Source: Flavobacterium sp. SUN052 (GTDB lineage: Bacteria; Bacteroidota; Bacteroidia; Flavobacteriales; Flavobacteriaceae). From it: a stretch of DNA of 64,000 nucleotides. Below are positions 4,703-44,524 of this stretch, in pieces; the stretch's first letter is position 1, and each line of letters starts with the position of its first letter. The notes under the pieces are model-generated. The model was not told the DNA's origin. It made no database searches and saw only the letters and a list, made by a program, of their open reading frames with translations. A program made the position numbers and the translations under genes. The stretch spans positions 21,939 through 85,938 of the forward strand of contig NZ_JAPQNS010000021.1 of NCBI RefSeq assembly GCF_028867935.1. The letters are read 5' to 3'.

Positions 4703-4963
4703 ATGAATTACCAACAAGAAAACGAGGATGTATTGGCTATTGACCCAAATCGGGGCGGTGCCGCTTTTGACGATGAGGGTTCGGGCGCAACAGCCGGATA
4801 TGGGTCTCAAGACCCTGATGCTATAGGTCGGGGCGACGATATGGACGACGATGCGCTCCTGGATGAGGATGACGACGATGATATTGCCCCAATTGGCGAC
4901 GACGACGATCTCGAAGATGACATTGATAATGACACAACCTCAACGGGACGGTCAGATTATTAA
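4703..4963 (+). CDS. Small acidic hypothetical protein
   Basis: An 86-residue protein of no recognised family. The second half is a nearly continuous run of Asp and Glu (for example DDDALLDEDDDDDIAPIGDD), giving a very low pI; Lys and Cys are absent. The ATG at 4703 is preferred because the residues encoded upstream (from 4607) do not look like protein start sequence and the acidic domain begins after MNYQQEN. A second acidic protein follows after 10 bases. It could be a disordered DNA-mimic or cation-binding protein; that is only a guess from composition. Confidence 0.55.
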   Translation: MNYQQENEDVLAIDPNRGGAAFDDEGSGATAGYGSQDPDAIGRGDDMDDDALLDEDDDDDIAPIGDDDDLEDDIDNDTTSTGRSDY

Positions 4964-4973
4964 CACCACGTAT

Positions 4974-5120
4974 ATGCAACCAAGCGAAGAAAACGAGCAG
5001 GACGATAACAACGGCACTGCCCCTGATAGTGATACTCAATCATCGGCCGCTAGTTCGTATGGAGGCCGCACTACTGAAGAAGGATCCGAGGCCCCAGAAA
5101 TGCCAGCAGAAGGGGAATGA
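4974..5120 (+). CDS. Small acidic, Ser/Glu-rich hypothetical protein
   Basis: A 48-residue open frame starting MQPSEENEQDDNNG, rich in Glu, Asp, Ser and Gly and predicted to be disordered. It begins 10 nt after the stop of the preceding acidic protein on the same strand and shares its style (Gln/Glu/Asn-rich N-terminus), suggesting a small operon or an old duplication. It has no recognisable domain. It may not be annotated by automatic callers because of its size. Confidence 0.4.
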   Translation: MQPSEENEQDDNNGTAPDSDTQSSAASSYGGRTTEEGSEAPEMPAEGE

Positions 5121-5130
5121 AGCAATGCAA

Positions 5131-5194
5131 AATGAATAATGGGTACTGAACAATGATTCTATTTTTGATCATCATTCAGCACCCATTATTCATT
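5131..5194. repeat. Long imperfect inverted repeat, AATGAATAATGG family
   Basis: Arms 5131-5157 and 5168-5194 are 27 nt each, complementary at all but a few positions around a 10-nt loop. The hairpin separates the acidic-protein operon from the convergent phosphohexomutase and could terminate both. Related words occur at 3455-3480 and 25655-25697. Confidence 0.65.
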
Positions 5195-5203
5195 TTATAT
5201 TAA

Positions 5204-6973
5204 CTATTTCAGGTTCATATCATCGATTACCCGCTGCACTTTTTCTTTTAGTGTTGCATAAACTGCGTCAAATTCATCTTTGCTATTAAGCGGTTCGTTT
5301 ACTGATACGTAGAACTTAATTTTTGGCTCTGTTCCCGATGGGCGGGCTGAAATCTTCGTACCATCGGCTGTGAAAAACTGTAGCACGTTCGATGATTCAA
5401 TTCCCATTTTGCCCGCTTCAATTGCATTTGTCTGGCCGTTCTCTGTGCGGGTCAGCGCCTTGTAGTCGTCAATACGAATGACTTCAGAACCGGCAATTTG
5501 CTTAGGTGGGTTGGCACGAAAATCGGCCATCATTTGCTGAATTTCTTCGGAGCCTGATTTACCTTTTTTGGTCAGTGATACAAGCCCTTCGTAATAGAAG
5601 CCGTTTTCCTGATACATCTCCATCAGCAAATCGAACAGACTTAGACCCTGATCTTTAGCATAGGCCGTCAGCTCAGCGATCATGGCGCAGGAGGCAATTG
5701 CATCTTTGTCGCGGACGAAATCACCAATCAGGTAGCCATAACTCTCTTCGCCCCCGGCAATAAACTGCTGCTGCCCTTCGAGTTCGCGGATTACCTGAGC
5801 AATGTATTTGAAGCCTGTTAAGGTGTTGTAACAGGGCACTCCCGCCCGCTCGCACATCCGGTCAATAAGGTCGGTGGTAACGATAGTTTTGGCAATGAAC
5901 TCTTTACCCGTCAGTTTATCAGCATCGCGCCAGGCCCGGAGCAGATAAAAAATGATAAGACTGGCCATCTGATTGCCATTGAGCAACTCAAATTCGCCAT
6001 GATGATTACGGGCACCCGCGCCAACGCGGTCTGCATCGGGATCGGTAGCCAGCACCAGATCAGCGTTCTGAGTCAGTGCCTGATCAAGTGCCAATTGCAT
6101 AGCCGCCCGCTCTTCGGGATTCGGCGATTTCACCGTCGGGAAATTGCCATCGGGCGTTGCCTGGGCCTCTACAATGCTCACATTAGTAAAACCAAGCGCG
6201 TCTAACGCCCTTGGTACCAGCGTGATTCCAGTACCGTGAATGGGCGTATAGACGATTTTCATACCCGCCTGCCGGGCAATCACGTCGGGGTTTACGGCAT
6301 TGGTTTTAATGCGTTCGATATAAGGTGCATCTACCTCTTCGTCGATCAGTTTGATCTTGTCTGGGTTTCCTTCAAACTTGATATCTTCAATTGACGTGAC
6401 TTTCTCAACCTCGTCGATAATGTTCTTGTCGTGCGGGGCCACTACTTGGGCACCGTCATTCCAATACACTTTGTAGCCATTATACTCAGGAGGGTTGTGT
6501 GAAGCCGTGACGACAATACCACTCTGGCAACCCAATTGACGGATCGCAAACGAAAGCTCAGGCGTAGGGCGTAGGCTGCTGAAAAGATAAACCTTGATGT
6601 GGTTCGCCGAGAATATGTCGGCTACCAGCCGGGCAAACTCGGGGCTCATCCGGCGGCTGTCGTGCGCAATGGCTACACTCACGTCTTCGCCGGGGAAAGC
6701 AGCATTGATATAATTGGCAAGGCCCTGCGTTGCCGCACCGACTGTGTAGCGGTTCATGCGGTTGGAGCCTACGCCGATCACCCCCCGAAGACCACCCGTA
6801 CCGAACTCCAGCGAGCGGTAAAACGAGTCGATTAGTTCAGTGGTGTTGCCGCTGTCTTGTAGTTGACGGATTGCAGTTTTAGTATTGGCATCATAAGAAC
6901 CGTCGAGCCAACGGTCGATTTCGGTCTGGGTTGTAGCGTCAATAGATGCTGTGGTCATGTCTGAATTAGTCAA
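5204..6973 (-). CDS. Phosphohexomutase (phosphoglucomutase/phosphomannomutase, alpha-D-phosphohexomutase family)
   Basis: A 589-residue cytoplasmic enzyme interconverting hexose 1- and 6-phosphates. The phosphoserine loop VTASHNPPEYNGYKVYW puts the catalytic serine at about residue 158; the metal loop DPDADRVG, the sugar-binding loop GGEESYGYL and the C-terminal phosphate-binding ARPSGTEPKIKFY are all present. The length matches the PgcA-like group (about 570-600 residues), larger than the 450-residue ManB/GlmM type. It supplies glucose-1-phosphate for polysaccharide or glycogen metabolism; no partner genes are adjacent. Confidence 0.93.
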   Translation of the reverse strand: MTNSDMTTASIDATTQTEIDRWLDGSYDANTKTAIRQLQDSGNTTELIDSFYRSLEFGTGGLRGVIGVGSNRMNRYTVGAATQGLANYINAAFPGEDVSVAIAHDSRRMSPEFARLVADIFSANHIKVYLFSSLRPTPELSFAIRQLGCQSGIVVTASHNPPEYNGYKVYWNDGAQVVAPHDKNIIDEVEKVTSIEDIKFEGNPDKIKLIDEEVDAPYIERIKTNAVNPDVIARQAGMKIVYTPIHGTGITLVPRALDALGFTNVSIVEAQATPDGNFPTVKSPNPEERAAMQLALDQALTQNADLVLATDPDADRVGAGARNHHGEFELLNGNQMASLIIFYLLRAWRDADKLTGKEFIAKTIVTTDLIDRMCERAGVPCYNTLTGFKYIAQVIRELEGQQQFIAGGEESYGYLIGDFVRDKDAIASCAMIAELTAYAKDQGLSLFDLLMEMYQENGFYYEGLVSLTKKGKSGSEEIQQMMADFRANPPKQIAGSEVIRIDDYKALTRTENGQTNAIEAGKMGIESSNVLQFFTADGTKISARPSGTEPKIKFYVSVNEPLNSKDEFDAVYATLKEKVQRVIDDMNLK

Positions 6974-7078
6974 TTGAAAAGGTATCTGTGATTTTGGGGC
7001 AAGTTACGGTGTTGTCAAGAGTCACGCAACGCGTATAGTAAATGCACCCTTTGACGAAAGTAGGAAAGATCAGATTCC

Positions 7079-8080
7079 CTACTTAAACCGCTGAATGCTA
7101 TAGCTTGATGCAGTCAGGCTAGCGGGGTTGCCGCTCATGACGGCTGCGCTTACTTCGCCAATCCGGGCGTTGAGCGTATAAATCTGATTGTTGTATTCGA
7201 CGTTCGTCGTGGGTTGTTCGTAACCTGCTTCGTCTGTTTTTATAACGCTGGCCGTACCCCAATTATCGTTACTTTGAATTTGAGTTACCCGGCTCCGGTT
7301 ATTCACCACGTATAGATCATTACCAATCAGCGTAATCCCATCAGCACCCGTCAGAGCTGGAAGACCAGTTATTTCGGTGATGGCATTGTTACTGGCTAAA
7401 TTGATTTTATACAGCTTACCAGTAGACGCTTTAGCCACGATCAGATAATTTCCGGGGTGATATACAATGCCGTTCAGACCAATTTGCCCGCTGGGGGCAG
7501 CGAATAGCGTATCGCGAGCCAGAATGCTGCTTTGTCCATCGGCCCCAACGCGGTACACTACTGGGGAGAAGGAGTCTGTCACATAAGCAACGCCCTGCGG
7601 ATCAAGCGTAACGTCGTTTGCGTAATGCTGGTTATTGGGCAAAAGAGCCGCCAGGTCAGTACGGCGCTCAACTTGGTTAGTAGCTAAGTTATACACAAAA
7701 AGTCCCGCCGTTTTGAGCTTGCTTTGGGCTGTACTTTTGCCTGATACACCCTGGTCGCCATTAACAACGTATACTTTACCGTTGAACTCCTTAATGCCAA
7801 CTGCACTGATCAGCTGGGCATCAGTGAACAGATCGGCGTAGCTTCCATTTTTATCGACAGAGCCTACTTTCCCCTGGGTTAACGATGAAACCAGAAACCG
7901 GTTGAGCACTGGTGAATATGTGATTCCTTCAGGGTATTGGCGGGCGCTTTCAAAAGCAAGACGATCGCCGTAATTGGGAGCCAATAGGTTATCGTCGCCA
8001 ATATTGCAGGATGACAGGCCGAGCAAAGCGGCAATGAGTGAAGCCGTTACCCACGAAGATAATTTAACGGATACGTTCAT
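7079..8080 (-). CDS. Lipoprotein with SMP-30/NHL-like beta-propeller
   Basis: A 333-residue protein with a lipoprotein signal (hydrophobic stretch ending LSSC, cysteine near residue 25), so probably anchored in the outer membrane or periplasm. The mature part shows repeated blades with patterns such as YPEGITYSPVLNRFLVSS, GIVYHPGNYLIVA and GADGITLIGNDLYVVNN, characteristic of SMP-30/gluconolactonase-type propellers. The catalytic metal ligands of true lactonases are not obvious, so a binding or scaffold role is as likely as an enzymatic one. The gene stands alone on the minus strand. Confidence 0.7.
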   Translation of the reverse strand: MNVSVKLSSWVTASLIAALLGLSSCNIGDDNLLAPNYGDRLAFESARQYPEGITYSPVLNRFLVSSLTQGKVGSVDKNGSYADLFTDAQLISAVGIKEFNGKVYVVNGDQGVSGKSTAQSKLKTAGLFVYNLATNQVERRTDLAALLPNNQHYANDVTLDPQGVAYVTDSFSPVVYRVGADGQSSILARDTLFAAPSGQIGLNGIVYHPGNYLIVAKASTGKLYKINLASNNAITEITGLPALTGADGITLIGNDLYVVNNRSRVTQIQSNDNWGTASVIKTDEAGYEQPTTNVEYNNQIYTLNARIGEVSAAVMSGNPASLTASSYSIQRFK

Positions 8081-8167
8081 AGTTTTGGAATATGTGTCCT
8101 CCTTAACTAATCCAGTACTCCCGTGGATTGTTTAAGCAACTCACCAAATTGCGCCTTCTGGATGTGT

Positions 8168-8629
8168 TTACACCCCAGCGGTTCTGGTCTTGCCTACCGT
8201 CGAAAGGGCTCCTTTAGGATCGCGCGTCATCTTTTTCACGAAGGTCACCCGCCTAAATCGCAACGCCGACCAGTCTTCATTTACAGCCACCATCCGCACT
8301 GGTTCAAAACCAGCGTCTCCTAATGCTGCCCAGCCCGTATCCCGGTTGAACTCGCACTGGTATTTTTTAGACGACTGTTTGGGGTACACCATCCATACAA
8401 CGGTATCACCTTCGGTATGAGCGGCTATCCACGTAGCCATTTGCTCAACCTGATCTAAGCGCTGGACAAAAGCCATCACAAAATCAGCTTGCGTTGCGGT
8501 CGTAGGGTCTTGCGAAACCGCTGCCAAAGCCTCAAAAGCGTTGGTCAATGGCGACAACTCGGCCGGAACATTCGCCAGCAGAATGTGCTGCTGGTTAGCG
8601 AGGTTTAGTTTTTTTAGGAGAACATCCAT
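8168..8629 (-). CDS. DUF3052-like protein
   Basis: A 153-residue cytoplasmic protein. The middle VVWMVYPKQSSKKYQ and the later EPVRMVAVNEDWSALRFRR correspond to the conserved WPKKSS and VDExWSGLKF-type motifs of the DUF3052 family, whose function is unknown. The N-terminus (KKLNLANQQHILLANVP) also fits the family's glycine-free version of the nucleotide-like loop. It lies between a lipoprotein gene and an ATP-grasp gene, separated from the latter by a long inverted repeat, so co-transcription is uncertain. Confidence 0.7.
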   Translation of the reverse strand: MDVLLKKLNLANQQHILLANVPAELSPLTNAFEALAAVSQDPTTATQADFVMAFVQRLDQVEQMATWIAAHTEGDTVVWMVYPKQSSKKYQCEFNRDTGWAALGDAGFEPVRMVAVNEDWSALRFRRVTFVKKMTRDPKGALSTVGKTRTAGV

Positions 8630-8654
8630 CGGTTGTTATGAAGATTGAAGATGG

Positions 8655-8762
8655 GAACGCGGATGACGCGGATGCTGCGCAACGCGGATCTCCGCAGATT
8701 TTGTCAACATAAAGAAATCCGTGAAGAATCCGCGTTGCGCAGCATCCGCGTCATCCGCGTTC
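8655..8762. repeat. Long inverted repeat with perfect 35-bp arms (CGCGGATGACGCGGATG family)
   Basis: Arms 8655-8689 and 8728-8762 are exact reverse complements over 35 nt, built from the word ACGCGGATG. The 38-nt centre is itself weakly self-complementary. It lies in the gap between two minus-strand genes. A degenerate half copy occurs at 10500-10545. Confidence 0.9.
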
Positions 8763-8771
8763 TCATTCATT

Positions 8772-10415
8772 TTAAACCAGATATCGATCTGTAATGCTCC
8801 TCGCCCGTTCGTCGGTTTCAACCAGTAACGGGTGCCGTTCAGACGACATTGCTGCCTCTAAATCAGCAATCGTATCTTTAAAAAGTAGGTTTACGGGAAT
8901 GGTATACGACTCCGAGTCGCTTTTTTGGTACACCAGCACCGGCCGTTCTTCACCGAAAGCGGCTGTCCGGTGGTAATCAGCTTTGGCTTTAAGCCAGGCA
9001 TCATCGGTTGGGCCGAAAGAAATTGTTTTTTCGGGCGCTGGGTTCGCTTTGCGTTCAGCAAGCCGGTCGTCTAGGTCGGCCAATAGTTGCTTGAGCCGGA
9101 ACGTGTCTTTACCTGTGCGAATGCGTTCGCGGAGGGATTGCCGGATCAGGTACGTCAGCGAATCGGTGAAGTTCATCCCGATTTCAGCCATCTGCTTGAA
9201 GATCAGTGATGCGGGCGACATCCCCGGAATAGTATTTGGGTCGTGCAACAGCACCTTTCCCGCTGGGGTCAGGAATCCGTCGATGCGCGAATAGACGTTG
9301 ATGCCCAATCCTTTAAACACGGCGGCCACCGACTCCTGAATCAGGCGGTTGTTTTCCAGCGATGTATCGACCGGAATCCGCTTCTTGGCAACGTTGGTTT
9401 TGTATTTTGTCTGGAAATCAAACGCTTCGGCATTATAAATTTCGGTTGGCGGCAATGCAATGGCCGTTCCATCGTCGTCCTGAATAACCCCGCACGAGAA
9501 CTCTTGGCCGCTGATAAACTCCTCGAATAGCAGATCATCTTCGGCATTTACCGAGGCAAAAACCATGTCCGAATCAGGGGCTTCCTCGGCTAGTGAATCC
9601 AGCATGCCAACCAGTTCAACGGGGCTCAGAATATAATCACCGGTATCTTCGAGCACGAGTGGGTAGCCGATGCCCGAATCCAGATTTGCGATGTCCTGCG
9701 CATATTTATCCTTGTCTTTGGCACTCATGTCGAGCCACTCGCTGGCGGGCATGCTAACCGTGAAAAAACATTTCTCTACCGCCCGACAAAAGGCATCCAG
9801 ATCGTTAGTACGAATAATTGACACGCCGATCGACGAACCCTGATGCGGAGCCTTCACCACCACGGGCAAGCCTAAATGGGACACCAGCGAAGCAAAAAAA
9901 GCACCCTTATCGGTTTGCTCCCAATCGTCGCGGCAGATAGTCGCCGTTTTTTTCTGTTGACCCGTTACCAGGGCAATCAGTTCGTTTTGGAGTATCTTGT
10001 TAATGCCAATCGCCGACCCGACCAAACCCGGTCCGGTATACGGGATTTTGTGCCATTCGAGCAGGCCCTGGATAGCACCATCCTCACAATCGGGACCATG
10101 CATGGCCAGAAATGCCATTTCGAAATGTTCTTCAAACCAATCGGGCTCAATAGCCTCCATGCCCGATTCGGCAAACACATCATCTTCGAACGATTCATCG
10201 TACACCGCAAACCCGTCGAGCGATGGCAAGCTGGCCCGGATTGATTCCTGTTGTAGAAACTCCGGCTCCACTTTATAGAAACGCCCCCAGCCGCTGACAA
10301 AAACCAGCACTGGTTCAAACAACGACTTGTCGATGCTTTCGTAGGCCGTGCGGCCCCCCATGAATGATACCTCGCGCTCACGCGACGGTCCGCCGAAGAA
10401 GATTCCTACTCTCAC
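8772..10415 (-). CDS. D-alanine--D-alanine ligase-like ATP-grasp enzyme, enlarged
   Basis: About 547 residues starting at a GTG (10415); an in-frame TTG further upstream would overlap the T-tract of a terminator, so the GTG is preferred. The N-terminal VGIFFGGPSREREVSF, the HGPDCEDGAIQGLLEWHKIP segment, PYTGPG, the ATP-grasp lysine region VVKAPHQGSSIGVS and the C-terminal DPNTIPGMSP all match Ddl ligases that join two D-alanines for peptidoglycan. It is about 200 residues longer than classical Ddl, with extra sequence in the central domain (around residues 180-250) and a C-terminal tail. GEDG is changed to CEDG. It may be a paralogue with another dipeptide substrate. Confidence 0.8.
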   Translation of the reverse strand: MRVGIFFGGPSREREVSFMGGRTAYESIDKSLFEPVLVFVSGWGRFYKVEPEFLQQESIRASLPSLDGFAVYDESFEDDVFAESGMEAIEPDWFEEHFEMAFLAMHGPDCEDGAIQGLLEWHKIPYTGPGLVGSAIGINKILQNELIALVTGQQKKTATICRDDWEQTDKGAFFASLVSHLGLPVVVKAPHQGSSIGVSIIRTNDLDAFCRAVEKCFFTVSMPASEWLDMSAKDKDKYAQDIANLDSGIGYPLVLEDTGDYILSPVELVGMLDSLAEEAPDSDMVFASVNAEDDLLFEEFISGQEFSCGVIQDDDGTAIALPPTEIYNAEAFDFQTKYKTNVAKKRIPVDTSLENNRLIQESVAAVFKGLGINVYSRIDGFLTPAGKVLLHDPNTIPGMSPASLIFKQMAEIGMNFTDSLTYLIRQSLRERIRTGKDTFRLKQLLADLDDRLAERKANPAPEKTISFGPTDDAWLKAKADYHRTAAFGEERPVLVYQKSDSESYTIPVNLLFKDTIADLEAAMSSERHPLLVETDERARSITDRYLV

Positions 10416-10455
10416 TATGCTGTTCGTGTTAGTTTGATGGGTGCAAAGAAACAAA

Positions 10456-10479
10456 AAAGCCGCCTGTTTCGGCGGCTTT
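10456..10479 (-). terminator. Intrinsic terminator of the sugar isomerase-like operon
   Basis: A 9-bp GC-rich stem (AAAGCCGCC and its complement) with a 6-nt loop is followed on the minus strand by six T residues. It ends the minus-strand transcription unit from about 13.7 kb. Confidence 0.75.
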
Positions 10480-10570
10480 GGATGTTATCTTACAAAAATG
10501 GAACGCGGATGACGCGAATGCTACACAACACGGATAAAAACGGATTCTAAGGTGAAAACAATAGAAAACT

Positions 10571-11452
10571 TTACTTCTTTAGGTTTTTCAGATAAGCAAT
10601 GCTCTGTGGCACCTGGGTATCTTCGTGATTGCTTTCGTCTTCGATGTAATAATGCTTGATGCCAACTTTTTTGGCGGCTTCTAAAACACCCGGCATATCA
10701 ATCTGACCGTCGCCCAGCACCACGTCGTTTTCGGGCGGGGTACCACCGCTGAGGTCGCCCTTTATACCTTTCTTGAGGTCTTTCAGGTGCATCAGTTTCC
10801 ACCGGCTGCCATACTTGTTCAATAACTTCACACAGTCGGCCCCGCCGTGTGTTGCCCACAAAATATCCATTTCAAATGACACATAGTTGGGGTTGGTATT
10901 TTGCACAATATAGTCGAACAAGGTGCCGTCTTTGTCTTTTACCTCAGTTGTCGGCTGGAACTCATATCCGTGGTTGTGGTAGCAAAAGGTCAGCCCATTG
11001 TCTTTCAGCACTTTCCCAACGCGGTTGAAATCTTCAACCGCTTTTTTGGCATTCTCCAGCGAGAAATTGCTCTTCTGATGAGGAATCCAGGCCACCATGA
11101 CAAACTCCGCGCCCAACGCTTTTGCCTGCTTTACCACAGCTTCGGGGTCTTTCACAATCTGCTCGTAACCCGCTCCTGTTGATGTTATTTTGATACCCCG
11201 TTCATCGAGCAGTTTTTTATACTCCTCTGGTGTCATTCCTTTGGGTGTACCGCTTTCGACTTCTTTGAAACCCAACGATTTGATCAGATCCAGCGTACCG
11301 ACAAGATCTTTAGGCATCATGTTGCGGTACGTATAGGTCTGAAGACCCAACGGAAACGTATAAACCGACTTGCCCGACTGGGCAAAAACGCTGGTAAGAC
11401 CAACAGCCAGAACACTGGTTAACAATAATTTACAAGTGGTTTTGTGTAGCAT
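10571..11452 (-). CDS. Secreted sugar phosphate isomerase/epimerase-like TIM-barrel protein
   Basis: A 293-residue xylose-isomerase-like TIM-barrel protein with an N-terminal signal peptide (hydrophobic stretch to about residue 24, cleavage near VFAQS). Family landmarks are LGLQTYTYR, FKEVESGTPKG, the metal-site segments CYHNHGYEF, SFEMDILWATHGG, WKLMHLKDL and HYYIEDE. It follows a GMC oxidoreductase by 8 nt and is therefore in its operon. Such periplasmic proteins in Bacteroidota act on keto or other modified sugars; recent work links them to 3-keto-glycoside processing, which is the inference here. Confidence 0.85.
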   Translation of the reverse strand: MLHKTTCKLLLTSVLAVGLTSVFAQSGKSVYTFPLGLQTYTYRNMMPKDLVGTLDLIKSLGFKEVESGTPKGMTPEEYKKLLDERGIKITSTGAGYEQIVKDPEAVVKQAKALGAEFVMVAWIPHQKSNFSLENAKKAVEDFNRVGKVLKDNGLTFCYHNHGYEFQPTTEVKDKDGTLFDYIVQNTNPNYVSFEMDILWATHGGADCVKLLNKYGSRWKLMHLKDLKKGIKGDLSGGTPPENDVVLGDGQIDMPGVLEAAKKVGIKHYYIEDESNHEDTQVPQSIAYLKNLKK

Positions 11453-11460
11453 AACTGGAT

Positions 11461-13188
11461 TTAAAGGTTTTTCTTTTTTAACTGTTTAACGGCATAATCG
11501 GCGGCCCGTGCCGTGAGGGCCATGTAAGTAAGCGACGGATTTTGTGTTCCCGTAGAGGTCATACAGGCCCCATCGGTCACGAACACGTTTTTGCACTGAT
11601 GGAGTTGATTCCACTCATTAAGCAACGACGTTTTGGGGTCTTTCCCCATTCTGACACCGCCCATTTCGTGAATATCGGAGCCAGGGTTTGAATGACTGTC
11701 AGATGCTTTGATATTGATGAACCCAGCCGCCGTGAACATCTCGGTCATCTGCTCCATGTAGTCCACAACCATCTTGTCGTCGTTCTCTGTCCAAACGGCT
11801 GAGGTCACCAATTGTGGGATGCCATATTTGTCTTTCAAATTTGGATCAAGGCGCACATGATTACGCTCGATTGGTATGGTTTCGCCCATCATCCAACCGC
11901 TGACATTCCAGGGGCCCAACTTCGGATTCAATAATTGTTCTTTCAGCGCAAGGCCCATCCCTTCGCGATTCTGGACCATACCACGACCTCCACCAACTCC
12001 AACGGCGTAGCCCCGTAGAAACCCGCTCGTCTCTTGCTTATGTACATTTCGGAACCGGGGAATATAACCATTGCTGGGGTTCTTACCGTCAGTCGTTTTA
12101 TCTAAAAACCCATCGAACTGAGCAGATATCTTTCCCCGGTAATTGTGCCAGGCGATGTATTTGCCCAGTAGCCCGCTATCGTTTCCTAACCCATTGGGGA
12201 ACCGACTGGATGTTGAGTTCAGCAGAATCTGATTGGAGTTCAGGGCAGAACCGTTTACAAAAATAACGTTGGCGTAAAACTCCAGCATTTCCTTCGTGTT
12301 GGCATCGACTACTCGTACTCCCGAAGCCTTACCTTTTTTCTCATCATAAATAATCGAATGCACCACGGAATGAGGGCGTAACGTCATGTTCCCGGTTTTC
12401 TCGGCCCAGGGCAGTGTAGATGAATTGCTGCTAAAATACCCGCCAAACGGGCAACCCCGCACGCACAACGACCGATGCTGGCACTTTGCCCGACCCTGCT
12501 CCGTATGAATAGGCTGCGGATCGGTAATGTGAGCGCAACGCCCCTGAATCAACTGGCGGTCGTTGTATTTTTGGGCAATAACCCCCTGTAAATGAGTCTC
12601 TACGCAGTTCAATTCGATAGGCGGCAGAAACTCGCCATCGGGTAGGTGGGGTAACCCATCTTTATTCCCCGAAATGCCAGCGAACTTTTCCACGTAACTG
12701 TACCAGGGAGCTATGTCAGCATAGCGAATAGGCCAGTCAACGGCGAATCCATCTCGGGCGGGGCCTTCAAAATCGAAGTCGCTCCAGCGTTGGGTCTGTC
12801 GCGCCCAGAGTAACGATTTGCCACCTACGTGATAGCCCCGCGTCCAGGTAAATGGCTGTTCCTCAACAAAAGGTTGTTCGTCGGGTTTAATAGCCCAGTG
12901 CAGCGTTTCTTCCCGCATGAACGAGCGAATATTACCATACTGCTCTCGTACGGCCAGCGGCACCTGGCCCCGGTGTTCAAATTCCCAGGGATTCAGATTC
13001 GCTGTGGGATAGTCAGTTACGTGTTTTACGTCCCGGCCCCGTTCGAGCACCAAGGTTTTTAAGCCTTTTCCGGTTAGCTCTTTCGCTGCCCACCCCCCGC
13101 TAATCCCCGACCCGATTACGATAGCGTCGTATCTGTTGGTAACGTGCTTAAGTGTTTTCATGCCAGCTTCAATCGCGCAAGTTTCCAT
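11461..13188 (-). CDS. GMC-family FAD-dependent oxidoreductase
   Basis: A 575-residue dehydrogenase; translation may begin at 13188 or at the ATG at 13161 (MKTLKHVTN). The FAD dinucleotide fold YDAIVIGSGISGGWAAKEL is at the N-terminus, the FAD-contact LVLERG follows, and the C-terminal GGVRMG, VTDGACMTSTGTQNPSLTYM carry the family's active-site region. A cysteine cluster CQHRSLCVRGCPFGG lies mid-protein. It overlaps the arrangement of gluconate/glucoside dehydrogenases: large flavoprotein plus a Tat-exported small subunit 12 nt upstream. It probably oxidises a sugar hydroxyl, perhaps at C3, in the periplasm. Confidence 0.88.
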   Translation of the reverse strand: METCAIEAGMKTLKHVTNRYDAIVIGSGISGGWAAKELTGKGLKTLVLERGRDVKHVTDYPTANLNPWEFEHRGQVPLAVREQYGNIRSFMREETLHWAIKPDEQPFVEEQPFTWTRGYHVGGKSLLWARQTQRWSDFDFEGPARDGFAVDWPIRYADIAPWYSYVEKFAGISGNKDGLPHLPDGEFLPPIELNCVETHLQGVIAQKYNDRQLIQGRCAHITDPQPIHTEQGRAKCQHRSLCVRGCPFGGYFSSNSSTLPWAEKTGNMTLRPHSVVHSIIYDEKKGKASGVRVVDANTKEMLEFYANVIFVNGSALNSNQILLNSTSSRFPNGLGNDSGLLGKYIAWHNYRGKISAQFDGFLDKTTDGKNPSNGYIPRFRNVHKQETSGFLRGYAVGVGGGRGMVQNREGMGLALKEQLLNPKLGPWNVSGWMMGETIPIERNHVRLDPNLKDKYGIPQLVTSAVWTENDDKMVVDYMEQMTEMFTAAGFINIKASDSHSNPGSDIHEMGGVRMGKDPKTSLLNEWNQLHQCKNVFVTDGACMTSTGTQNPSLTYMALTARAADYAVKQLKKKNL

Positions 13189-13199
13189 GTTATTGAGCT

Positions 13200-13730
13200 T
13201 TATTTCTGAGCAATTGGAGCCGGTACGCAGCCGTAGAAATGGCCGGGTATAGGGTTGTAATGTAGAAACTTGGTCATGACATATTCAGAGGTGGTGTACC
13301 CCTGAATGGTCAGGTTCTTGACCAATGCATAAAAATCTTTGCGGCTTGCTTCGGGTGATGTTTCCATCTGTCCTAGAACGTCCATCCGCTGAGTAGCATC
13401 GCAGTTCACAAACGACTGCTTAAATTGCTGATTTGCGATTGCATCCACTGTATCCAACCCAACTTTTACCGATTGCTGAACGGGTACCTCGTAACAGTCG
13501 GCCACCATTTTCTGGACAAAATCGGGCACACCAAGCGCTTTAGCACCCAAGGTATCCGAAGCGGGTATCAGCGTATCAACAATTTCAGTCAGCGTTTGAG
13601 CCTGATTCGGCTCCAGAAGAGAATGTCCTGACCGTACAGACACGTGCGTCCAGGCACTAGCCCAGGCAGGCAATGCCAGCAATCCACTCGTAGCCAGTGC
13701 AATGTGTTTGAGTGCAATTCGCCTTTCCAT
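13200..13730 (-). CDS. Gluconate 2-dehydrogenase subunit 3-like protein
   Basis: A 176-residue partner subunit, starting at the ATG at 13730 (MERRIALKHIALATSGLLAL), with a Tat-like N-terminus RR and hydrophobic stretch ending at AWASA. The central LTEIVDTLIPASDTLGAKAL is the hallmark of the gluconate_2-dh3 family. The protein normally escorts or stabilises the flavoprotein subunit, which follows after 11 nt. It heads the three-gene minus-strand operon with the GMC enzyme and the sugar isomerase-like protein. Confidence 0.88.
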   Translation of the reverse strand: MERRIALKHIALATSGLLALPAWASAWTHVSVRSGHSLLEPNQAQTLTEIVDTLIPASDTLGAKALGVPDFVQKMVADCYEVPVQQSVKVGLDTVDAIANQQFKQSFVNCDATQRMDVLGQMETSPEASRKDFYALVKNLTIQGYTTSEYVMTKFLHYNPIPGHFYGCVPAPIAQK

Positions 13731-13831
13731 GATAATACGGCTCACCGCCCGGAAGGAAGGGCAGTTCGTATTATCTAAAGATAATTGCCGGGAAAGGTTA
13801 CTATTTGTTTGAGTAGATGGTTGGTTATCTT

Positions 13832-41630: not shown

Positions 41631-43022
41631 ATGGTTTTTGATCCTGCCCTTTCTATGATGCGCAAAGCAACCCGAATGGAAGAAATCGACGCGGCTGTTA
41701 ACAAGTTCGAACCAGTCACGCCCGATCATGAGTTTTATGTCAATTTCGAAAATTTGCGCGGCAATTTTCAAGAGCGCCGGGTTATGCGAATTCTGAATGC
41801 TATCCCTAAAAATGGGAAGTACCACTTTGACTATCAACCTAATCGTTATAATAAAACGCTGCTGTTTCTGGCCGGAATGCGTGGGTCAGGCAAAACCTCA
41901 GAGCTAGCAAAATACTGCCAACTACTTGACTCACCAGATTGCTTTTTCGTGGTGACCTGCAATGTGGATACAGATCTTGATCTGAATAACATGCAGTACA
42001 TGGACATTCTGATCTTTCAGTTAGAAAAGCTTCTGGAGAAAGCCCAAGATCGTGGTTTGGAGTTAGACCAGTCGATTATCGATAGCCTTGAAATTTGGTT
42101 TCAGGAGCGGGTAAAAGAAATTAATCGAAGCCTGAAAACGGAGGGTAGCGCAGAATTAGAAATTGGAAATGATGACTCGTTCTCTGTAGCGGGATTATTG
42201 GGGAAACTGATTGGTGTCACTGGCAAACTTAAAGCGGGGCTCTCAGGCAGTTATGAACGCGCTGAAGCCATTCGTACCAACATTAAGAATCGGTTTCCAG
42301 ACTTCGCCGTAAAATTCAATACGTTTATTGAGCAGACCAATCAGCAACTCCGCAAGGAAGGTAAGGGGCAGGAGGTGTTGTTTATAGTAGACGGTCTGGA
42401 GAAAACGATGACTGCTGAAACACGCCGTAAAATCATTCTGGACGAATCCAACCGGATTAAGGAAATCAAAGCCAACACTATTTTCACGCTGCCCATTGAG
42501 TTGATGAAAGAACGGGTTAGCCTAGAAAATTTTAGTGAGGTAGTTCCGTTTCCGTTTGTCAAGATTGTAGAACGGGATGGAACCGTTGTACAAAAAGCCA
42601 TTGAACGGTTTGAAGAATTTGTTTGCAAACGGGTAGCTAAATCGCTCTTCGATTCGGTCGATACAATTCATCTGGCTATTCATTTTAGTGGAGGCTCACC
42701 CCGACAACTACTCCGAATCATTGAACAGGCGACATGGGAGTTGGACGACGACGCTCAACAAATCACGAAGGAAGCTATTGAACGAGCTATTGACCAAATG
42801 GGTACATCGACCGCCCGCTATCTGGTACCTGCTGAATTTGAATTATTAAAAACTATAAAAGCTGATTTTGAGGCTGGGCAGTCAATTGGTTTCAGCGGTG
42901 ATATTCAGAAATTGTTGGAAGAGGGAGTCCTTTTTGAGTACAACGATGGAACTGACAAACGGGCAAACCCGGTACTCGAACGATCTAAATTGTACCAGTA
43001 TCGTGTTTTAGGGCAAGTCTGA
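41631..43022 (+). CDS. P-loop ATPase of an ATPase-TPR gene pair (AAA/STAND-like)
   Basis: 463 residues from the first ATG; a start at 41655 would give 455. Walker A is FLAGMRGSGKTSE (about 79-91), Walker B is VLFIVDGLEKT (about 247-257), a further GxP motif HFSGGSPRQLLRIIEQATWE (about 350) resembles sensor 2 of AAA or ORC-like ATPases and the STAND superfamily. A glycine-rich segment (AGLLGKLIGVTGKLKAGLSG) at about 190-210 is inserted between the two Walker motifs. No signal peptide. The stop overlaps the start of a TPR gene (TGATG), so the products are translationally coupled and probably act together. Target unknown. Confidence 0.8.
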   Translation: MVFDPALSMMRKATRMEEIDAAVNKFEPVTPDHEFYVNFENLRGNFQERRVMRILNAIPKNGKYHFDYQPNRYNKTLLFLAGMRGSGKTSELAKYCQLLDSPDCFFVVTCNVDTDLDLNNMQYMDILIFQLEKLLEKAQDRGLELDQSIIDSLEIWFQERVKEINRSLKTEGSAELEIGNDDSFSVAGLLGKLIGVTGKLKAGLSGSYERAEAIRTNIKNRFPDFAVKFNTFIEQTNQQLRKEGKGQEVLFIVDGLEKTMTAETRRKIILDESNRIKEIKANTIFTLPIELMKERVSLENFSEVVPFPFVKIVERDGTVVQKAIERFEEFVCKRVAKSLFDSVDTIHLAIHFSGGSPRQLLRIIEQATWELDDDAQQITKEAIERAIDQMGTSTARYLVPAEFELLKTIKADFEAGQSIGFSGDIQKLLEEGVLFEYNDGTDKRANPVLERSKLYQYRVLGQV

Positions 43023-44524
43023 TGGAAGCCGATTTTGCTCGCGAACTCCGCTTGCTTACCAACTCATTGCGGTATCCCACGTTTCGCTTTATTGTAATTG
43101 GGCATAACCGCAAAAGCATCATTACTGATGTGACTGCCCATATTCGGGCCGCTTACCCCGACCGACCTTATCACGAACTCCGGCTATCAGGCAAAACATA
43201 CCGGGAAATCATTGATTCGCTGAAGGGTTTTCAGGCAGGAATCGTCGTCATCCCCGATTTTGACTGGCTCTTTCAACCTGGCAATGAAGATGTATGCATA
43301 GGCTTCAATCAACGCCGGGATGCATTAGCTAAATTACCCATTGCCTTGCTTTGTTTTGTTGAACCAAGTGGTTACACTAATCTGCCTAAACGACTCCCAG
43401 ATTGGTGGTCGTTGCGATCTTTAGATTTGGAATTCCAGCAGGAGACAGCAGATGAAATACCCCAATTTATAAATTCAGAGCTAGAAAAATCTTCACTTGG
43501 CGGGCAGACGAAAGAAGAGAAAGAAGCAGAAATTGAGCGGCTTTTGGAACAGTTGAATACTGTTGAACCAGGCAATAAAAAGTTACTTTTATTGCTCAAT
43601 GACCAAATTGCCTCTCTATTTTATGATCTATCTCGTTATGACGAAGCAAAAAGTCATTGGAATGCAAGTCTGGCGTTTGCCCGTGAGACCGGTGATATCC
43701 AAGGGGAAGGAATTACACTCAATAACATTAGCCAGATTTATCGAGCCCGGGGAGATTTCGAAACGGCCCTGACCTATCTAAAACAGAGCCTGAGCATCCA
43801 ACAGAAAATCGGTGATACCCAAGAGGAAGGAACCTCCCTCAACAACATTAGCCAGATTTATCAAGCCCGGGGAGAATACGAAACAGCACTGACCTATCTG
43901 AAACAGAGTTTGGGTATAGCACAGCAAATCGGTGATACCCAAGGGGAAGGAACCACCCTCAATAACATTAGCCAGATTTATCGAGCCCGAGGAGATTTCG
44001 AAACGGCCCTGACCTATCTAAAAGACAGCCTGAGCATCCGACAGAAAATCGGTGATATCCAAGGGGAAGGAACCACCCTCAATAACATTAGCCAGATTTA
44101 TAAAGCCCGGGGAGATTATGAAACGGCTCTGACCTATCTAAAAGACAGCCTGAGCATCCGACAGAAAATCGGTGATACCCAAGGGGAAGGAACCACCCTC
44201 AATAACATTAGCCAGATTTATCAAGCCCGGGGAGATTACGAAACGGCCCTGACCTATCTGAAGCAGAGCCTGAACATCCGACAGCAAATCGGTGATAAAA
44301 GTGGCGAGGCTACAAGCTTGCATAATATAGGAGCAATCTACTTTGAGCAAAATCAGGACTTTGAGAAGGCCCTTCCGTTTCTCTGGCGAGCTTTCTCAAT
44401 TTTCAAACAACTTGGTTCTCCAAGTGCTAATGGCACACTCCAATATCTCAACATCATTCGCCAACAAATCGGTGAAGAACGCTACAATCAACTGTTGCAA
44501 TCACTACCCGAAACCCCAGATTAA
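43022..44524 (+). CDS. TPR protein coupled to a P-loop ATPase
   Basis: A 500-residue cytoplasmic protein. Residues 1-150 form a domain with RFIVIGHNRKSIITDVTAHI (a decayed P-loop in appearance), AGIVVIPDFDWLFQP and the QRRDALAKLPIALLCFVEP, LPDWWSLRSLDLEFQ segment, a pattern that I know from N-terminal domains of STAND-type TPR proteins. Residues 150-215 are a charged linker; from residue 224 come five almost identical 40-residue TPRs (consensus GDTQGEGTTLNNISQIYRAR then a second half), then a sixth divergent unit and a helical end. It begins 1 nt before the ATPase stop. Partner recognition by the TPR face is inferred. Confidence 0.8.
   Translation: MEADFARELRLLTNSLRYPTFRFIVIGHNRKSIITDVTAHIRAAYPDRPYHELRLSGKTYREIIDSLKGFQAGIVVIPDFDWLFQPGNEDVCIGFNQRRDALAKLPIALLCFVEPSGYTNLPKRLPDWWSLRSLDLEFQQETADEIPQFINSELEKSSLGGQTKEEKEAEIERLLEQLNTVEPGNKKLLLLLNDQIASLFYDLSRYDEAKSHWNASLAFARETGDIQGEGITLNNISQIYRARGDFETALTYLKQSLSIQQKIGDTQEEGTSLNNISQIYQARGEYETALTYLKQSLGIAQQIGDTQGEGTTLNNISQIYRARGDFETALTYLKDSLSIRQKIGDIQGEGTTLNNISQIYKARGDYETALTYLKDSLSIRQKIGDTQGEGTTLNNISQIYQARGDYETALTYLKQSLNIRQQIGDKSGEATSLHNIGAIYFEQNQDFEKALPFLWRAFSIFKQLGSPSANGTLQYLNIIRQQIGEERYNQLLQSLPETPD
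43691..44290 (+). repeat. Five tandem 120-bp TPR-coding repeats, followed by a divergent sixth
   Basis: Units begin at 43691, 43811, 43931, 44051 and 44171, each opening GGTGATA and containing AACATTAGCCAGATTTAT; the units differ from one another at only a few positions. Each codes for one 40-residue repeat. The divergent sixth unit starts at 44291. Recent expansion or gene conversion is implied. Confidence 0.9.

Follow-up and report, generated by a model that had tools for sequence, protein, structure and literature searches.

Two adjacent genes of Flavobacterium sp. SUN052, one coding for a P-loop ATPase and the other for a TPR protein, raise the question of whether a receptor of the STAND type can be divided between two polypeptides, and whether such a pair acts in biological conflict. 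We analysed these genes within a 64,000-nucleotide stretch of DNA (the window), in which they and all features located below lie on the plus strand.

The two gene products

Gene A (41631..43022, 463 aa) was assigned from its ORF, its relatives and its predicted fold as an ORC/Cdc6-STAND-like P-loop ATPase. Gene B (43022..44524, 500 aa) codes for a predicted degenerate AAA+ domain followed by a TPR array and a C-terminal cap. Both ORFs are intact and, as a preliminary description of this DNA had stated, they share one base (TGATG) at 43022. Gene A starts at the position of ORF residue 10 in 15 of 20 aligned relatives and at residue 9 in one close relative; its true start is therefore probably at 41655-41658.

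The three motifs attributed earlier to the first protein are all present. The Walker A sequence GMRGSGKT occupies residues 82-89 (41874..41897), and the pattern GxxxxGK[ST] was found in each of the 91 A proteins checked. The Walker B region FIVDGLE (residues 251-257; 42381..42401) is represented by the pattern hhh[DE][DNG][LF][DE] in 87 of the 91, and GGSPRQLL (residues 354-361; 42690..42713), which may correspond to sensor-2, by GGxxRxL in 80. The best listed fold matches of the predicted A structure were TnsC, ORC/Cdc6 and archaeal AAA+ proteins, and the model has an ORC/Cdc6-TnsC-STAND-like AAA+ core. The predicted fold supports the earlier view of A as a STAND/ORC-like ATPase. Near the C-terminus the model contains one helix and two strands that could form a winged helix. 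This feature, together with the TnsC and ORC/Cdc6 matches at the top of the fold comparison, would suit a DNA-loading pair in which A would load onto DNA, targeted by B as TnsC is by TnsD or TniQ, an interpretation that we consider improbable.

Profile searches placed A less precisely. The HMM comparison suggested in the preliminary description gave no curated STAND profile (NACHT, NB-ARC, nSTAND) above its cut-off, and the window protein drew Pfam matches below cut-off alone, of the AAA and NACHT type (AAA_22, AAA_14, AAA_16, NPHP3_N, NACHT). The Pfam family KAP_NTPase, for which at least 20 bits are needed, was not listed for window A at E <= 1; two cyanobacterial relatives of A score 24.8 and 24.7 bits with it. 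In NCBIfam the two best profiles show weak local similarity to A and both stay far under their cut-offs: DS41_1_antiphage (NF053860) with 27.9 bits against 370, and the P-loop ATPase Sll1717 family (NF047389) with 25.6 bits against 75, the best of five A relatives scanned reaching 44.1 bits with the latter. DS-41 was rejected as the parent family of A on this score, and its cut-off was reached in none of 198 genomes of the phylum. Gene A had no match in PADLOC and none among phage records at E 1e-5. When 5.8 billion proteins were searched, 7998 candidates were scored and 595 of them qualified as relatives of A (E <= 0.001), 120 of these being listed.

The N-terminal domain of B (the N-domain, about residues 1-138; 43022..43435) is predicted to have a five-stranded AAA+ alpha/beta core. 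Neither a Walker A motif nor a lid was observed in the model, and the Walker A pattern was found in 0 of 54 N-domains. The domain fits a P-loop-type core that has lost Walker A and lacks the lid bundle, and it is predicted to be a degenerate, catalytically dead AAA+ domain. Both fragments noted earlier in the second protein, QRRDALAKLPIALL and DWWSLRSL, were found. Three residues, N96 and R99 in FNQRRD (residues 95-100; 43304..43321) and D127 in LPDWWSLRS (residues 125-133; 43394..43420), are invariant in 54 of 54 aligned N-domains, an invariance that is partly circular for L040-L045 because these distant N-domains were spotted by eye and afterwards added to the alignment. R132, just ahead of the last strand, is kept in 37 of the 54.

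When 1202 stop-to-stop ORFs from distant and control loci were searched with a profile built from 31 close N-domains only, all five of the L040-L045 partners were recovered, that of L043 weakly (0.011). The top 21 matches are all ORFs linked to A, counting L139, linked to an A remnant, and L146, which lies one gene further on. Below these come the first ORFs without a link to A: two orphans with weak scores, at E = 0.058 and E = 0.14, and a control ORF at E = 0.28. Two partners rank lower still, that of L134 at E = 0.36 and that of L092 at E = 0.41, and the profile misses three more (L088, L089 and L090) at E <= 1. Searched by itself, the window N-domain has no Pfam match at E <= 5, and B residues 1-165 used as a query found 39 relatives among the 5.8 billion proteins.

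Unlike in single-chain STAND proteins, motor and repeats sit on separate polypeptides, the repeats being encoded by gene B. To that extent the idea of a STAND protein cut over two genes stands, but the N-domain of B is, by prediction, a second AAA+ domain, degenerate and without Walker A. On these predictions the pair combines an active and an inactive NTPase and is not simply one STAND protein split in two.

Conservation and distribution of the gene pair

A genome scan found 37 loci related to A. Of the 31 close loci (at least 41% identity), 30 could be tested, L024 being set apart by a contig end that cuts A, and all 30 have an N-domain ORF directly downstream. The pairing is more than chance because B follows A in every testable close locus, and the coupling of the two genes proposed in the preliminary description, with the conserved pairing that a neighbourhood survey was to look for, is borne out. 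With longest-ORF starts, A and B overlap by 1-71 nt in 28 of the 30 loci and are separated by 1 and 3 nt in the other two. At L039 the open ORF covers only the second half of A. Five of six distant loci (25-28% identity to A) have a downstream ORF that we read as N-domain-TPR; the distant locus L044 is cut by a contig end. No third gene recurs in at least three loci, as judged by blastp clustering of stretches of up to 7 kb per side.

At the scale of the phylum, A-type matches occur in 18 of 395 genomes and 6 of 170 genera, a lower bound, as six further genomes with A are absent from that list. An N-domain partner lies downstream of A in 16 of 21 places and is absent in five, all of them in family f18, which is also home to the Chlorobiaceae contigs L012 and L013. 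At L091 and L100, A is followed by a metallophosphatase-NACHT-FGE protein without the N-domain, and at L097 by an ORF starting like that of L091; a short stub is what follows A at L094 and L099. With the N-domain as the query in 390 genomes we obtained 31 places, 24 strong (E < 1e-30) and 7 weak. A stands directly upstream in 22 of the strong places (in one it is frameshifted and in two cut by the contig); in the other two the end of A is at a contig edge or A has shrunk to about 30 codons. Five of the 24 (G502, G584, both of G525, and G377) are, judging from length and sequence, the contigs of L013, L012, L016, L036 and L021. Three of the weak places, from three genomes, were examined; each holds an N-domain-TPR ORF with housekeeping genes as neighbours, and the fetched stretch contains no A. 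Homologues occurring singly in housekeeping loci had been named beforehand as evidence against a module. The close relatives, with 30/30 paired, are not of this kind; weak orphan N-domain-TPR genes do exist.

The pair is spread over several phyla. When 47 A proteins were placed in a tree, the gammaproteobacterial L023 and L037 fell within a supported group that otherwise consists of Bacteroidota, and another such group contained two sequences from Chlorobiota; as many of the records are metagenome bins, some contigs may be misplaced.

The second expectation of the neighbourhood survey, enrichment in defence islands, found no clear support: PADLOC detected no clear excess of defence genes in the flanks of 14 window-clade loci compared with control stretches. 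The flank set comprised 107 of 109 ORFs (one ORF of 2202 aa and one overlapping the end of the partner gene were left out), and the control set 107 of 127 ORFs from stretches of G000, G525, G261 and G377, where one long ORF and the last listed part, including one whole G377 stretch, were omitted to equalise numbers. The control is loose because only G525 is known to supply both sets. Counted per family, the flanks gave matches to 17 families at E <= 1e-15 and the control stretches to 14. PDC-S03 (two members), PDC-M37B, PD_DExK and DolB (one each) are among those seen in the flanks alone, and several of the families common to both sets look like general helicase models. Five window ORFs around the pair have no PADLOC match.

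Two further observations concern the surroundings of these loci. Three f18 loci, picked by eye and without a control, have ORFs of restriction type close by: HsdM_N near L132, MmeI behind the L139 partner and SWI2/SNF2 upstream in L133. Close to the L011 pair lie relatives, at 72% and 52% identity, of another gene pair of the window, 30 kb from A and B (11461-13745).

Flanks without a clear excess of defence genes and neighbours that PADLOC does not match would agree with a regulatory or signalling role outside conflict, either as an ATP-driven scaffold or as a transcription switch of the MalT type, a role that we think unlikely. Against it stands the patchy occurrence of A, found in 6 of 170 genera (a lower bound), and in 1 of 100 genomes at the family scale and 1 of 150 at the genus scale, where the kinship label looks odd. 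Copies are carried on plasmids, and the immediate neighbours differ between loci, those of the window pair being unmatched at the loci of Fibrisoma and Spirosoma (L009-L011).

Array turnover and variable modules

The tandem TPR array of B (43690..44297) was delimited by Tandem Repeats Finder with a period of 120 bp, 5.1 copies and 88% matches, and contains five clear TPR units of 40 residues. The units had been called near-identical. The array is real, but the wording was slightly strong, since pairwise identities among the five are 73-93% for protein and 82-94% for DNA. In 10 of 10 unit pairs dN is smaller than dS, and positive selection between repeat units was not detected. Behind the array lies the C-terminal cap (44297..44521), which is still recognisable in close relatives with different arrays. 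B matches six PADLOC models; the best is a TPR model (5.1e-46), and the other five matches are weak and located within the array or extend into it. TPR_MalT and AfsR-type TPR models also match the array, which would again suit a regulatory switch.

Arrays turn over while the domain in front of them stays constant. Five relatives of B (P0121-P0125) have N-domains that are 95-99% identical, yet after the linker identity falls to 40-54% in 7 of the 10 pairs and is 77-94% in the other three. This divergence supports the variable repeat array proposed at the outset; repeat assembly is a caveat because the five come from contigs of 1.4-7.8 kb (sources all ena or lgn) and one protein is only 281 aa long. 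Mean DNA identity between units is 89% inside the window array and 96% inside that of Fibrisoma (L009), while units of the two arrays are on average 70% identical. Units that are alike within and unlike between arrays give the picture termed concerted evolution for fungal NLR repeats in the part of that work available to us (PMC4986451). According to the same source, fungal NLRs likewise have internally conserved arrays that turn over by concerted evolution, but they are single-protein receptors, unlike the A-B pair, and positive selection has been reported for them where none was detected in the window array.

The C-terminal modules of B vary. At L032, B consists of the N-domain and NB-ARC, and at L093, L096 and L101 of the N-domain, TPRs, metallophosphatase, NACHT and FGE-sulfatase. 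The L093 N-domain as a query gave 12 proteins; metallophosphatase, NACHT and FGE are among the precomputed domains of 11, and the twelfth has no FGE listed. A scan for the [YF]xDD motif near the FGE-bearing loci gave no ORF taken for a reverse transcriptase. Seven cyanobacterial plasmids, three of them predicted to be conjugative, carry a relative of A (22-23% identity) with an N-domain ORF next after it in six and one gene later in Calothrix. Matches listed for these N-domain ORFs include nSTAND1 and WD40 at L144 and L148 and WD40 at L145 and L147; at L143 the N-domain stands by itself (153 aa). On the Calothrix plasmid A is followed by a fusion of an A-like ATPase with TIR (TIR_2, E = 1.5e-33) and, third in order, by a protein in which two N-domains in tandem precede the beginning of nSTAND1, where the stretch ends. 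The N-domain had been called typical of STAND-type proteins, and indeed its family elsewhere precedes NB-ARC, NACHT or nSTAND1 within one protein. That no effector was visible holds for the window pair, but distant relatives do have TIR and metallophosphatase. These fusions (TIR, metallophosphatase-NACHT-FGE, nSTAND1-WD40) and the array turnover speak further against a purely regulatory pair, which the missing cis effector in the window would favour.

Known systems and a model for the pair

No paper in the literature searched was recognised as describing the A-B pair, but "undescribed", as it was first called, is only partly safe, since a two-gene system of active and inactive STAND proteins, nSTAND2, is already published (PMC8195603). 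In the portion of that source consulted, nSTAND2 is a mobile two-gene operon that pairs an active STAND with an eroded one; the eroded partner carries variable modules, of which GT4 or HEPN are the commonest, and a hetero-ring is proposed for the two. It is the closest published design, as far as descriptions can be compared: adjacent genes for an active and an eroded NTPase, with variable fusions on the latter. The pair could accordingly be nSTAND2 itself or another described inactive-STAND system in which TPRs replace GT4 or HEPN, but we give this identity a low probability. GT4 and HEPN are absent among the Pfam matches listed for the B proteins scanned, which bear TPR, NB-ARC, metallophosphatase-NACHT-FGE or nSTAND1-WD40 instead. 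The available text also places nSTAND2 near CR-ATPases, Dap3 and RNA12 (PMC8195603), whereas the best listed fold matches of A are TnsC, ORC/Cdc6 and archaeal AAA+ proteins, a difference that is still compatible with nSTAND2.

Inactive NTPases proposed to be sensors are also described, in the sections consulted, for iSTAND of the MoxR-vWA ternary systems and for BrxB/BrxF of BREX (PMC7159879, PMC12839542, PMC8195603). Like these, the N-domain is, by prediction, an inactive P-loop NTPase with lost Walker motifs and a reduced C-terminal helical bundle; unlike in MoxR-vWA and BREX, no third gene recurs beside the pair in our blastp clustering. The N..R...D signature finds no mention in those sections. 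Bacterial NLR-like STAND proteins such as Avs and bNACHT, as presented in the consulted part of PMC10907252, share with the pair a STAND/ORC-type motor and a variable C-terminal sensor, for example TPRs; in the pair, motor and repeats are on two proteins, presumably joined by the dead AAA+ domain, and the window has no cis effector. By domain content, B proteins of some distant relatives, with metallophosphatase and NACHT together, resemble DS-8, a metallophosphatase-NACHT protein validated as an anti-phage system in an E. coli study; in the excerpt consulted, DS-8 is a single-gene system, unlike the two-gene pair (PMC13092281).

The reading that we prefer, with a probability of roughly 0.55, is that A and B are two subunits of an NLR-like, immune-type conflict module in which the sensor B licenses the motor A; the pair is probably related to immune receptors, with its parts divided between two polypeptides. 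A would be an active ATPase motor of the ORC/Cdc6-STAND type, and B a catalytically dead AAA+ domain joined to a variable repeat array that may sense a protein of an invader or some other non-self protein. The dead domain would dock on A, with N96, R99 and D127 as the interface, and B would perhaps supply an arginine to A in trans. Docking would license A for ATP exchange or hydrolysis, and the two proteins would assemble into a mixed ring that leads to the response. The enzyme that carries out this response may, in distant relatives, be TIR on an A-like protein or metallophosphatase on B. The window pair shows no such enzyme, so it would need either a partner from another locus or an action of the winged-helix-like C-terminus of A on nucleic acid. 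Counting against a conflict module are the lack of a cis effector, of a PADLOC match for A and of a clear defence excess in the flanks, as well as the orphan N-domain-TPR genes, the 5 of 21 A places without a partner, and dN < dS.

More tentatively, and with rather less confidence, the N-x2-R ... D domain may be a general docking module. One ORC-like motor would then serve under interchangeable NLR-type receptors (TPR, NB-ARC, TPR-metallophosphatase-NACHT-FGE or nSTAND1-WD40), each switching it on in trans with the invariant arginine. This would be a bacterial helper/sensor NLR split, in outline like paired plant NLRs. The degenerate AAA+ domain with this signature is not named in the sources searched.

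The logic of two genes for an active and an inactive STAND protein is known from nSTAND2, and the pair shows this logic with other modules and a putative immune function. If our reading is right, bacteria possess an immune-type receptor divided between two proteins, in which a dead AAA+ domain connects, like a plug, a motor that stays constant to sensors that are exchangeable and change fast. Unassigned TPR proteins of Bacteroidota, Chlorobiota, Chloroflexota, Pseudomonadota and Cyanobacteriota would be tied to NLR biology, and an N-x2-R ... D domain adjoining an ORC-like ATPase would be a marker for more such systems. The role of inactive STAND-like domains would then become directly testable.

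Partner proteins of gene A

At three loci (L093, L096 and L101), the gene downstream of A, the ORC/Cdc6-STAND-like ATPase gene of the pair, encodes a partner protein of 1569-1588 aa that combines the N-domain (predicted to be a degenerate AAA+ domain lacking Walker A) with TPR, metallophosphatase, NACHT and FGE-sulfatase domains. The protein encoded downstream of A in L091 and L100 resembles these partners but does not have the N-domain, and the same apparently holds for L097. On plasmid4 of Calothrix sp. NIES-4101 (L146), an operon-like gene set at 4929-11218 contains the A ATPase, a TIR domain fused to an A-like ATPase, and a single protein in which two degenerate AAA+ N-domains in tandem precede the start of nSTAND1.

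Neighboring genes and apparent decay of the pair

Restriction-type ORFs adjoin three relatives in family f18, namely HsdM_N in L132, SWI2/SNF2 in L133 and MmeI in L139. In L094 (4709-6633) the partner gene has shrunk to a stub and is adjoined by a DDE transposase ORF, an apparent decay of the pair. In L140, L141 and L142, a weak orphan N-domain-TPR gene adjoins an asd-like housekeeping gene and, in two of the three, also a coaD-like one (both named by eye); A was absent from the stretch examined around each orphan.

Kinship of the pair and the window genome

The window genome measures 8.1 Mb, the listed genomes of its assigned genus 2.4-5.7 Mb; the GC content of the window is 49%. Two adjacent window genes (11461-13745), 30 kb from the A-B pair, have relatives that are 72% and 52% identical in Spirosoma spitsbergense (L011, 11837-14213), where they lie close to that locus's own A-B pair. 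The closest relatives of the window's pair are found in Fibrisoma and Spirosoma, and against this kinship and the difference in genome size the genus placement of the window genome looks odd.
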